Origin: an uncultured Bacteroidota bacterium
Lineage (GTDB): Bacteria; Bacteroidota; Bacteroidia; Chitinophagales; Saprospiraceae
Direction of reading: 5' to 3'
Assembly: GCA_903933805.1 (NCBI GenBank)
Contig: CAIZLM010000054.1
Span: forward strand, 1-40,602
DNA: 40,602 nucleotides
Below, piece by piece: positions 11,585 to 14,732 of the stretch (its first letter is position 1; every line of letters begins with the position of its first letter). The position numbers were made by a program, and so were the translations under genes. Under the pieces are notes generated by a model. It did no database searches. It was not told where the DNA came from and saw only the letters and a list, made by a program, of their open reading frames with translations.

Positions 11585-12880
11585 ATGGATTACCGAAATA
11601 TTAGAAAAAGTAAGGGTTGGATTTACAACCTCCTGTTGCCATCTATTCACTTGGAATATAGGAAACTTTTCCAAAAAATTCATCTGCACAACCGGAAAGG
11701 CGTTCCGGCCAATAAACCTGTGCTCATCGCTTCCAACCATCCCACAGCCTTCATTGACCCGCTTTTCTTCTGTATTTTTTTCGATCCTCCGGTGTACAAC
11801 ATGACACGCGGAGACATCTTTCGAAAACCTTTCTTCCGAAAACTACTCGAACATTGCAACATGTTTCCCGTTTATCGACAGCGGGATGGTTACGATAAGC
11901 GCGATCGAAATGATGAAGTATTTGAATATTGTCAAAAAAAATTGGTGGAAGGTGTCGCTGTAAATATTTTTGTAGAGGGTGAACACCACCTGGATAAGCG
12001 CGTACTCTCCATGCAAAAAGGCATCGCGCGCATTGCTTTCGGAACCTATGAAAACCACCCAATGGACGACTTGCAAATCGTTCCCGTTGGGTGTAATTAT
12101 AGTGCCGGAGACATACTTCGGGATGAAGCAAAGGTCAATGTGGGAGCACCTATATTCGTTAAAGACTACTGGGAAAAATATCGAGAAAACCCCGGCGCAG
12201 CCATCAACAGCCTTTGTGGAGACATCAGAAAAGCATTGATCACGCTTTGCTACCACATTGAAAATCGGAATGATGATGCTTTGGCGGAACACCTGCTGAC
12301 CCTCTGGCGCAACGACCATCCCGTCAACGCACTGCCCGTAGTCGAGCATACTGCCGATCGGTTTAAGGAAGAAAAAAAGGTGCTGGATTGCTTGAATTCA
12401 ATGCCTGAGGATCAAAAAAGAGCTCTAGAAGAACAAACAAACGCATATTTCCAAGCGCTGAAGTCATCAGACATCTCGGATAAATCGCTCATGCAGCCAC
12501 AACAAGGCAAATGGTCTTCGTTGTTATTTTTGGTATTGGGCTTTTTACCCATGCTGGTCGGATTTGTCTTGAGCTTTCCCATTCAAAGTCTGGCGCTTTA
12601 CCTGGCGAATACGAAAGTAAAAAAGCGGGAGTTCCGGACCAGTATTTTGGTGGGTATAGGCGTGCTGGGCAACTTTTTTTATTATTTATCCCTGCTGCTG
12701 GTCGGATTGATCTTACAGTCTTCGCTCTTGATCCTATTTGCCGTACTATTGCCCGCCTTATCCTGGTTTTCCATTTATTGGAGCGACCGTTTGTCGGCTT
12801 GGCGTGCCGCACGCAGGGTATTGGTACACCCGGAAAGAAGCCGATTACTGGCCATGAGATCGAGGGTTCACTATACCTAG
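11585..12880 (+). CDS. Lysophospholipid acyltransferase family protein (PlsC-like)
   Basis: A 431-residue member of the glycerolipid acyltransferase superfamily, which transfers an acyl group to (lyso)phospholipid or glycerol-3-phosphate at the inner membrane. The catalytic His-Asp motif is in SNHPTAFIDP (residues about 56-65); His and Asp are five residues apart, a spacing I recall from the NHPNSFLD-type subgroup. Further family blocks are the FVEGEHH segment and KGIARIAFG. After residue about 310 there are four hydrophobic helices (LLFLVLGFLPMLVGFVLSF and others), an unusual C-terminal membrane module for a minimal PlsC. The start at 11585 is followed by a basic, plausible N-terminus. Its TAG stop is the end of the downstream inverted-repeat element. 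Confidence 0.85.
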   Translation: MDYRNIRKSKGWIYNLLLPSIHLEYRKLFQKIHLHNRKGVPANKPVLIASNHPTAFIDPLFFCIFFDPPVYNMTRGDIFRKPFFRKLLEHCNMFPVYRQRDGYDKRDRNDEVFEYCQKKLVEGVAVNIFVEGEHHLDKRVLSMQKGIARIAFGTYENHPMDDLQIVPVGCNYSAGDILRDEAKVNVGAPIFVKDYWEKYRENPGAAINSLCGDIRKALITLCYHIENRNDDALAEHLLTLWRNDHPVNALPVVEHTADRFKEEKKVLDCLNSMPEDQKRALEEQTNAYFQALKSSDISDKSLMQPQQGKWSSLLFLVLGFLPMLVGFVLSFPIQSLALYLANTKVKKREFRTSILVGIGVLGNFFYYLSLLLVGLILQSSLLILFAVLLPALSWFSIYWSDRLSAWRAARRVLVHPERSRLLAMRSRVHYT

Positions 12881-13137
12881 TGCCGTATCCAGTCAATGGC
12901 CCATGAATGTGGCGATCCAATTTTCCATACTACTGGACATTTTCAAATCTGCGTAAAATCTGCGTAAAATCTGCGCGAAATACACTCTAAGTCCTGGGTA
13001 AAACAAAAATATCCATTTTTTCCCTTCCTCCGCGTTGTTCGTCGGTTAAAATATCCCGTTTTGAGCCTTCCTCACGCCTTTATGAAGAAAAAATATGCCT
13101 CCCCAATTCATGGGCCATTGACTTGACGCGGCACTAG
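12877..13137. mobile_element. MITE-like element with 32-bp terminal inverted repeats
   Basis: Positions 12877-12908 and 13106-13137 are inverted copies with 29 of 32 bases matching; both ends read CTAGTGCCG and both share AGTCAATGGCCCATGAAT. The 261-bp interval has no long open frame. It contains three tandem 11-bp units (AAATCTGCGTA) at 12945-12977. The terminal CTAG at each side contains the stop codon of the flanking gene: TAG of the acyltransferase at 12878-12880 and TAG of bshC on the other strand at 13134-13136. No transposase is present, so any mobility would depend on a protein supplied elsewhere. Confidence 0.7.
12945..12977 (+). repeat. Three tandem 11-bp repeats (AAATCTGCGTA)
   Basis: Two exact units and a third ending CGCG instead of CGTA lie inside the MITE-like element. 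Three units are too few to call an origin or iteron array. Confidence 0.75.
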
Positions 13138-14732
13138 TCGGATGCCTGCAACACCACGAATGTATTGTCATAGGACACCAAAGCAGATTTCAAGCTTTCC
13201 AGAAACTTGTCCTCGTATTTCAACAAGTATGGCAGCACGTTTTCGCTCCGTTCTTGGAGTCCATTGGAAGGAAATAGCTTCTCTTTGAGTACCCGTAACT
13301 GGTTGATAGCAACTTCGTGTTTTTGCTTTTCGGCACGGAGTAGCCTGCTTTCCCATTGCTGCAATGCTGCAACGGCCTTTACTTCTTCTGCGCGGACTGC
13401 TTTTTCTAGGGAAGCGTCAATAAGGCTGGCTTTTTCTGTTATTTGATCATAAACCATCCGCAATGCACGGATTTCATCGGACAATGTAACTGAAGCAGCG
13501 GTGTGTTTCTCGATGTATTCCCGCACTAGTGCGTCAGTATCGCCAAAAAGCGCTTCAGCATCAAAGCCTAATTTTTCCAATTTTTTCCCAGTATCTTTGT
13601 CCAGCCACAACACGGAATGGCGGCGCACCAATATCGGAAATGGTATCCCAAAATACTCAAATAGGTCCTTGCGCTCTAGCCAGTAAGCCAGTTCACCACC
13701 GCCGCCGATATACGCCAAATTGGGCAGTATCATCTCTTGAAAGAGTGGTCTGAGCACCACATTGGGACTAAAACATTCCGGGTGCTGCTCCAATTCGGCC
13801 TCCAATTCGGCAGCAGTAAAGGTCAAATTGGTGTTTAATACCTTAAAAATGCCGGACTCTTGTACAATTCGCTCGCGAAGTCCCGGTTTCATGTAAAACA
13901 AGTTGATCTCACGCGGGGCAGCTTGGGTCTTAAAACCCAAGGCGTTGAGTCTCGCAATTGTTTTGTTCACAATACCGTAAGTAGGCATTTGGAACAATTC
14001 CTGCCGCATGACAGGGATAAAATGGCGCTTCAGAACAGCGCTGTTCATGTTGATGACGACCAACCCGTATTCACCCAAAAACTCATGTAGCAAGGCTTGA
14101 GTAGCTTCTGCGAAATTCTTTTCGCCGGAGTAGGCTTTTGCCACACGATCGAAGAGCGAGTGGGCGGATTCGCGCTCTCCGAGCATATTTTTCAAGGTGG
14201 AGAGTGCTGGTTCGAGGGTTGAAACGCTGATGCTACCAACGGCGCCGGTGACACCCGGCTCCCACATAATTTTTTTTCCAAACAGGGAGGTTTGGTTCAG
14301 TTCTTCTAGGTCATGGTCCTCGCTACCAATGACAAAAACAGGGATAATCCGTTTGCCATCTGCTGAATTTTCTTCAATTGATTCGGCCAAATTGATGGTT
14401 GTCAGTGCTTTATAAACCACATAGAGTGGTCCAAGGAAAAGACAAGGTTGGTGCGCTGTTGTGACGGTGAAAGTATTCTCCAAGCGCAAAGCAGCTATGT
14501 TTGCGCGAACTTTTTCCATAACCGGCAACGTTGCATACTGCATATCAAGCAAATCAGCCAGTTCGCTTCGGGGATACACAATTGTTTTTTTTTCCAGCAA
14601 TGCCGCTTCAAAAGACGTTGGGGTTGCTGGCGCTGAGAAAAATGCTCGGAGCTTGTCGTCTCCTGTGGCGTAGGCCACATCTGTTTTCGCCAACTGTGGG
14701 ACGTGCTTGAATGATATCGTCGTCTTTTTCAT
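13134..14732 (-). CDS. bshC: Bacillithiol biosynthesis cysteine-adding enzyme BshC
   Basis: A 532-residue BshC, the putative ligase that adds cysteine to glucosaminyl-malate in the last step of bacillithiol synthesis, a thiol that replaces glutathione. Diagnostic segments are the substrate-site TTAHQPCLFLGPLYVVYKAL, the VFVIGSEDHDLEELN block, and YIGGGGELAYWLERK, followed by a long helical coiled-coil (about 420-500) as in BshC structures. The ATG at 14732 (MKKTTISFKHVPQL) fits the family start; the open frame continues upstream to 14786 without similarity. bshA and bshB are not in this window. The stop codon lies in the terminal repeat of the MITE-like element. Confidence 0.92.
   Translation of the reverse strand: MKKTTISFKHVPQLAKTDVAYATGDDKLRAFFSAPATPTSFEAALLEKKTIVYPRSELADLLDMQYATLPVMEKVRANIAALRLENTFTVTTAHQPCLFLGPLYVVYKALTTINLAESIEENSADGKRIIPVFVIGSEDHDLEELNQTSLFGKKIMWEPGVTGAVGSISVSTLEPALSTLKNMLGERESAHSLFDRVAKAYSGEKNFAEATQALLHEFLGEYGLVVINMNSAVLKRHFIPVMRQELFQMPTYGIVNKTIARLNALGFKTQAAPREINLFYMKPGLRERIVQESGIFKVLNTNLTFTAAELEAELEQHPECFSPNVVLRPLFQEMILPNLAYIGGGGELAYWLERKDLFEYFGIPFPILVRRHSVLWLDKDTGKKLEKLGFDAEALFGDTDALVREYIEKHTAASVTLSDEIRALRMVYDQITEKASLIDASLEKAVRAEEVKAVAALQQWESRLLRAEKQKHEVAINQLRVLKEKLFPSNGLQERSENVLPYLLKYEDKFLESLKSALVSYDNTFVVLQASD

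Follow-up and report, generated by a model that had tools for sequence, protein, structure and literature searches.

Two convergent genes in a 40,602-nucleotide stretch of Saprospiraceae DNA (the window, by which we mean this stretch at its full length) end at the opposite borders of a 261-bp interval, each within a copy of the same four-base motif, CTAG. The locus raises the question of what this interval is, and of how it could come to lie there with both genes intact. We consider it likely that the interval, 12877-13137, is a non-autonomous MITE of the IS630/Tc1-mariner type, moved by a transposase made elsewhere. No earlier description of this MITE family was seen in the literature on bacterial MITEs, IS630, CTAG, Bacteroidetes and Saprospiraceae as far as its available text goes, most subscription journals lying outside the search.

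A composite element between two convergent stop codons

The left-hand gene encodes an acyltransferase (PF01553; 11585-12880, plus strand) and the right-hand gene is bshC (PF10079 and PF24850; 13134-14732, minus strand), for which we chose the ATG at 14732 as the start, the open reading frame (ORF) as listed beginning at TTG 14786. The interval between them has CTAG as both of its termini: the acyltransferase stop is the TAG at 12878-12880, inside the left CTAG, and the bshC stop is the TAG at 13136-13134 on the minus strand, inside the right CTAG. Its arms, 12877-12908 on the plus strand and 13106-13137 on the minus strand, are 32 nucleotides each, are spaced 197 nucleotides apart and match at 29 of 32 positions (91% complementary), whereas the best 32-nucleotide inverted repeat in 100 dinucleotide shuffles of 12600-13400 reached 25 matches. 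No ORF of at least 60 amino acids lies wholly inside the interval, and no Rfam family reached the gathering score anywhere in the window. A preliminary description of this DNA had reported the inverted ends, the two CTAGs with their stop codons and the non-coding interior, and all three were borne out. The interval is short, bears terminal inverted repeats and has no transposase gene, as is characteristic of a MITE.

The interval is nevertheless a composite. The common form of the element is 164 bp long, and the additional 97 bp of the window copy are due to a second small element nested in it. Positions 12926-13016 (plus strand; limits set by reading) match the remains of this second element, with the end CATACTACTGGACATTTT and a damaged right end. 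An intact element of the second kind, of about 205 bp, is present in another genome of the genus (L279:1140-1344); it is MITE-like, with ends CATACTACTGGACATTTT and CATACTACTGGACATTTTTGAAAA, and is flanked by a 9-bp duplication, GTTACCGTG. The 11-bp tandem repeats noted in the preliminary description are indeed present (AAATCTGCGTA, 2.8 copies, 12945-12975, plus strand) but are a property of the nested element rather than of the MITE proper, and a stand-alone relative of the second element in the window's own genome (L036) has similar repeats in an array. A MITE copy at a different locus, on contig C4 (L009), contains this insertion at an identical position, and a decayed 9-bp duplication could be discerned there by reading. 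Two such composites at different loci suggest that the nested insertion came first and that movement or copying of the MITE followed.

Copies of the element and the site of insertion

The MITE-like reading proposed at the outset gains support from the number of copies. In the window's own genome (G000; 4.2 Mb in 336 contigs), a search with the window element returned 99 aligned pieces, which comprise the window copy itself, 22 further full or partial copies and shorter end pieces. These 22 are the long copy on contig C4 (83%) and 21 places that align to all or some of part 142-261 of the query, the left 50 bp directly adjoining in most cases; the left part is missing in four of the 22. The genome search that had been proposed for the terminal sequence, carried out with a 23-base end pattern at up to three mismatches, gave 67 matches in this genome, compared with none for the reversed pattern. 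The copies stop abruptly at or near CTAG and have different flanks, save for two with an identical 82-bp left flank, and neighbouring copies have a single CTAG in common. The element thus recurs at numerous loci and keeps the same ends, as expected of a MITE. The 164-bp element was found in eight of 60 genomes, all eight belonging to the one genus that accounts for 37 of the 60, and in none of the 23 genomes outside it. Another genome of this genus, G025, carries very similar copies at many loci, several of which are broken off at contig ends.

Fifty elements with paired ends were collected from loci of six genomes, two spurious pairings (L010, 225 bp, and L068, 252 bp) being excluded. Half of them (25) measure 164 bp and seven are 47-bp palindromes, the rest ranging from 34 to 261 bp. 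CTAG is present at the left end of 42, at the right end of 39 and at both ends of 33. Among 157 ends, deviations per position numbered 24 at position 1 (the C), 13 and 9 at positions 2-3, 17 at position 4 and 19 at inner position 12, a profile compatible with duplication of either TA or CTAG. In a full copy, L026, the near-repeats ATGGCCCAT and ATGGGCCAT are at positions 20 and 137, and the 47-bp palindromes would fit an internal deletion between the two.

Several loci depart from the regular arrangement. The two copies with a common left flank are L012 (L012:1-82) and L015; the identity runs to the contig start and the right flanks differ, which may reflect recombination between copies or an assembly fault. 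Lone ends, or ends arranged tail to tail around one CTAG, are present at L111:2163-2206, near 2231 in L117 and near 1985 in L084, the outer partner not being visible. At L124:2292-2579 (contig C259), the last residues of an ORF that we take to resemble an AbiEi-type antitoxin are, by reading, encoded in a partial element into which the ORF extends.

We compared the junction between the two genes across the genus, in which bshC was searched in 42 genomes and matched in 39; 30 loci were read, the window's included. No copy of the element lies within 60 bp beyond the bshC stop (within 36 bp in one case) in any of the 29 relatives, and a scan of their loci returned a single end match with two mismatches, inside bshC of L133, which we took as chance. 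The acyltransferase gene was found beside bshC in 18 of these relatives and was not found in the stretch at the other 11 loci. Of the 18, 11 have their two stops separated by -34 to +3, with exactly -4 in three of those, and the remaining seven have a gap of 22 to 836. In the window the gap is 253, and removal of 257 bp (the element with one CTAG) brings it to -4; when the flanks are joined, one CTAG ends both genes. Since removal gives -4 here and the two genes of relatives often nearly abut, the simplest history, and the probable one, is insertion of the element into a single CTAG at which both genes terminated. The relatives are 39-58% identical to the window's acyltransferase and 53-62% identical to its bshC protein, and the evidence from the junction is therefore one of geometry, not of an orthologous empty site. 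The adjacent copies that have a single CTAG in common tell the same story.

Among the 50 paired elements, only the window copy has an ORF of at least 60 codons terminating in each of its two CTAGs. At least one such ORF ends in a CTAG of 18 of the 50 elements, compared with 26 of 127 control CTAG sites (p 0.036), a weak enrichment in copies that are not independent of one another. The window copy illustrates how an element that targets CTAG can settle where two convergent stops overlap, with no damage to either gene.

Candidate movers

A transposase with matching ends had been suggested as a further check, and one was found outside the Saprospirales, though at the level of the end class. When a 17-base form of the end was scanned in 84,980 species genomes, at least 101 stretches matched; among the matches listed, 33 stretches were counted as Saprospirales and 68 as other. 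A partner end lay within 1 kb in 11 of the 68 non-Saprospirales stretches listed and was absent from 57, many of which are probably chance matches. Among the matches listed, four of the 11 partnered stretches span 165-167 bp and come without exception from Actinomycetota MAGs (L331, L335, L376 and L393); the others span 51-681 bp. A blast comparison of the L376 end with plasmids matched 95 records, including 70 from Streptomyces and 10 from Rhodococcus. In the 40 listed of these 95, the gene under the match encodes an IS630 transposase in 10, an IS3 transposase in one and another product in three, with no gene under the match in 20 and no annotation in six. Both ends, each with CTAG, were found in three of six plasmid regions that we fetched (L439, L440 and L437, with the ends 1235, 1237 and 1509 bp apart), and one end only in the remaining three. 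The transposases of L439, L440 and L437 pass the NCBIfam IS630 cut-off, and the one tested in Pfam has DDE_3. By reading, the ends of the plasmid IS630 elements agree with the MITE end at 14-16 of 17 positions, which makes the end class IS630-like, and the inner block GGCAACGTTTGCC, together with the tip, is common to L376, one end of L393 and the plasmid IS630 elements L437 and L440.

No pair of Saprospirales and Actinomycetota elements showed interior homology with z above 3, and the cross-phylum link is therefore one of end class only. In the plasmid collection nothing matched the 164-bp element, the Saprospirales end gave 2 and 9 weak matches to plasmids, none at a transposase and none convincing, and the actinobacterial end gave three weak matches to phages. 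One end class thus extends from Saprospirales to Actinomycetota, in which it is tied to IS630 transposases.

Stretches of this class that go with a gene were observed besides. A 681-bp cassette in an Actinomycetes MAG (L334:4108-4788) carries a glyoxalase-like (VOC) gene and has end positions 25/26 matched; the first part of the same cassette, with another left flank, lies in a second Actinomycetes MAG (L397, from 7660), where the stretch ends. A short ORF inside a 465-bp element on a viral contig (L434:3740-4204) encodes a small membrane-like protein.

Because the matching transposases are of the IS630 family, a duplication of TA is preferred over one of CTAG, and we infer that an IS630-family transposase moved the Saprospirales copies by cut-and-paste, with a 2-bp rather than a 4-bp duplication. 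The TA in CTAG is reportedly the preferred target of IS630, to judge from the title of a 1991 paper by Tenzen and Ohtsubo. In the mechanism that we propose, a transposase made elsewhere would bind both inverted ends and excise the element, which would then insert at the TA inside a CTAG, with duplication of the TA. The putative duplicates here are 12878-12879 on the left, which with the next G forms the acyltransferase stop, and 13135-13136 on the right, which is part of the bshC stop on the minus strand. With G as its first base and C as its last, the element would re-create CTAG at both ends, and the stops would derive from the target, not from the element. The target at this locus would have been one CTAG in which the acyltransferase and bshC stops overlapped by 4 bp; each gene would have retained its own TAG, and the insertion would therefore have been nearly silent. 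The earlier suggestion that CTAG is a target-site duplication thus stands as regards the target site, but the duplication itself is more likely the TA inside it. Duplication of TA is given as a property of the family in the available text on ISY100 (PMC2170065).

Within the genus, we found no autonomous element with the ends CTAGTGCCGYGTCC, although the contigs of G025 go down only to just over 3 kb and a collapsed insertion sequence could escape such a search. Partner profiles were run for PF01609 and PF13358 in six genomes, for NF033593 (ISNCY) and NF033551 (IS1182) in 42, for PF01797 (Y1) in nine and for PF00665 (rve) in five; PF13358 had no matches in G000, G025, G022 and G033. The profile hits, together with 40 small G025 contigs, gave 168 loci (L157-L324), which contained MITE copies and lone ends; at up to two mismatches in 14, none has a transposase flanked on both sides. 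A tblastn search with a Streptomyces IS630 protein against 316 loci of the genus (1.06 Mb) returned nothing, a weak negative since the loci searched include the known IS630 elements of G007 and G009, which were also missed. With respect to the end class, CTAGTGCCG, and CTAG at both ends, the window element is like the IS630 family (Tc1/mariner superfamily), for which the three two-ended plasmid copies encode transposases; it is unlike the family in lacking a transposase of its own, and the searches of its genus revealed no partner IS630.

Individual candidates were rejected on their ends. The IS630 of L194 has ends of its own (954-995 and 2011-2052), and the matching site there is a separate mini-element of about 42 bp; the G009 IS630 and L192 have other ends, and a lone MITE end adjoins a copy of the former (L209). 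No ends were found for the IS630 elements of L187 and L189 (G007). In the window's own genome, L166:514-2155 is a broken ISNCY element whose transposase is split over two ORFs and whose ends, TAGTGTCTGTCC, are like those of the MITE at the tip only.

The CTAGs might instead be whole-motif duplications left by another DDE transposase, of IS5 type or similar. The available text on MITEPsy1 of Pseudomonas syringae, a MITE of 100 nt with 18-nt repeats, describes duplication of CTAG or YTAA (PMC3189936), and CTAG at both ends of 33 of the 50 paired elements is in keeping with such a duplication. We regard this as improbable, because the plasmid elements with the same end class carry IS630 transposases, wherever ends could be found for the DDE_Tnp_1 and IS1182 hits in the genus they are different, and 0 of the 168 loci have a MITE end on both sides of a transposase. 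Moreover, MITEPsy1 is like the window element in target only: its ends are ISPsy2/IS5-like and, as printed (GGAAGGTCTG...), differ from those of the window element (PMC3189936).

Mobilisation of a REP-like or TIR repeat by a Y1 tyrosine transposase (RAYT/TIRYT) is very improbable. The 47-bp palindromes and lone ends do look REP-like, TIR families linked to Y1 transposases exist according to the available text on them (PMC3733652), and in G025 three of the seven Y1 matches have a MITE copy no more than a few hundred bp away (contigs C92, C71 and C14; L244, L269 and L272). However, G000 has no Y1 match despite its 66-67 end matches, the three G025 loci have no matching end on the other side of the gene, as a REP/TIRYT arrangement would require, and the top Y1 gene in G025 is flanked by a different repeat. 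The proximity of Y1 matches to MITE copies in G025 exceeds an informal estimate from copy density.

Finally, an immobile, conserved bidirectional terminator between the convergent genes can hardly be entertained, and is refuted as the sole explanation: the element does lie exactly between the two stops and its folded RNA is far more stable than that of shuffles (z -7.29), but it is multi-copy at different loci and was not seen just downstream of bshC in the 29 relatives read, and a simple scan for a GC stem followed by a T run found no site inside it. Termination may yet be a side effect of the element. A single-copy sequence conserved at this locus was the outcome that the preliminary description had said would point to a terminator only; 22 further places in the genome and 29 relatives without a copy just after bshC show the opposite.

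The IS630-type MITE that we favour can be set beside known small elements. The ends of the Correia elements (NEMIS) of Neisseria presumably differ from those of the window element. These elements resemble it as short MITEs, in 107- and 155-bp forms, and the repeat unit of pneumococcus (RUP), as described in the available text, is likewise a short, intergenic, IS630-related MITE with TA targets (PMC2229807). RUP differs, in a comparison by description, in its host, its length of 107 bp and its proposed driver, IS630-Spn1 (PMC2229807). The MITE papers, so far as their text was available, describe bacterial MITEs species by species.

The address block

The ends of the 164-bp element contain a segment that varies between genomes and is matched to the other arm. 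This segment, which we call the address, comprises element positions 15-31 and lies in the window at 12891-12907 (plus strand) and 13107-13123 (minus strand). The analysis drew on nine Saprospirales genomes and covered 40 elements of 160-168 bp, two genomes contributing 17 and 12 and each of the others one to three; one spurious G000 row is among the 40. In 246 between-genome pairs of 164-bp elements, which largely set G000 against G025, identity was 0.88 for the outer 14 bp and 0.85-0.89 for the interior, compared with 0.60 for positions 15-31 and 0.59 for the partner positions 134-150. In contrast, when positions 15-31 were compared with the opposite arm in 39 elements of 163-165 bp, the match was 0.85 within the same element and 0.58 for arms across genomes. 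With one consensus per genome (nine), the address match was 0.86 within and 0.61 across genomes, a difference reached by 0 of 20,000 permutations; the other blocks also surpassed most permutations, though the margins were small (0.90/0.85, 0.52/0.47 and 0.52/0.46, reached by 208, 156 and 43 of 20,000 permutations).

Copying from arm to arm is unlikely as the cause of the matched blocks, since the two arms still differ at positions 33, 34, 37, 38, 40 and 42. In line with Tc1/mariner biology, we propose that the address may be the site to which the transposase attaches through its DNA-binding domain, and that it would follow the divergence of the transposase. The conservation of the interior may have a dull answer, namely recent horizontal spread. 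We tentatively raise a second reading, which is possible but rather unlikely: the MITE would be modular, its outer catalytic ends and a functional, conserved 102-bp interior persisting across species while both copies of the paired 17-bp address change together, which would let the element pass from one diverged IS630 transposase to another. As part of this joint reading, the interior would be kept for a function such as host-factor binding or RNA or DNA structure, and not by chance. The turnover of the presumed transposase-binding block in both arms provides, in Saprospirales, a data set on how non-autonomous elements follow a changing transposase. Two address types coexist in G025, the commoner being present in nine of 12 elements.
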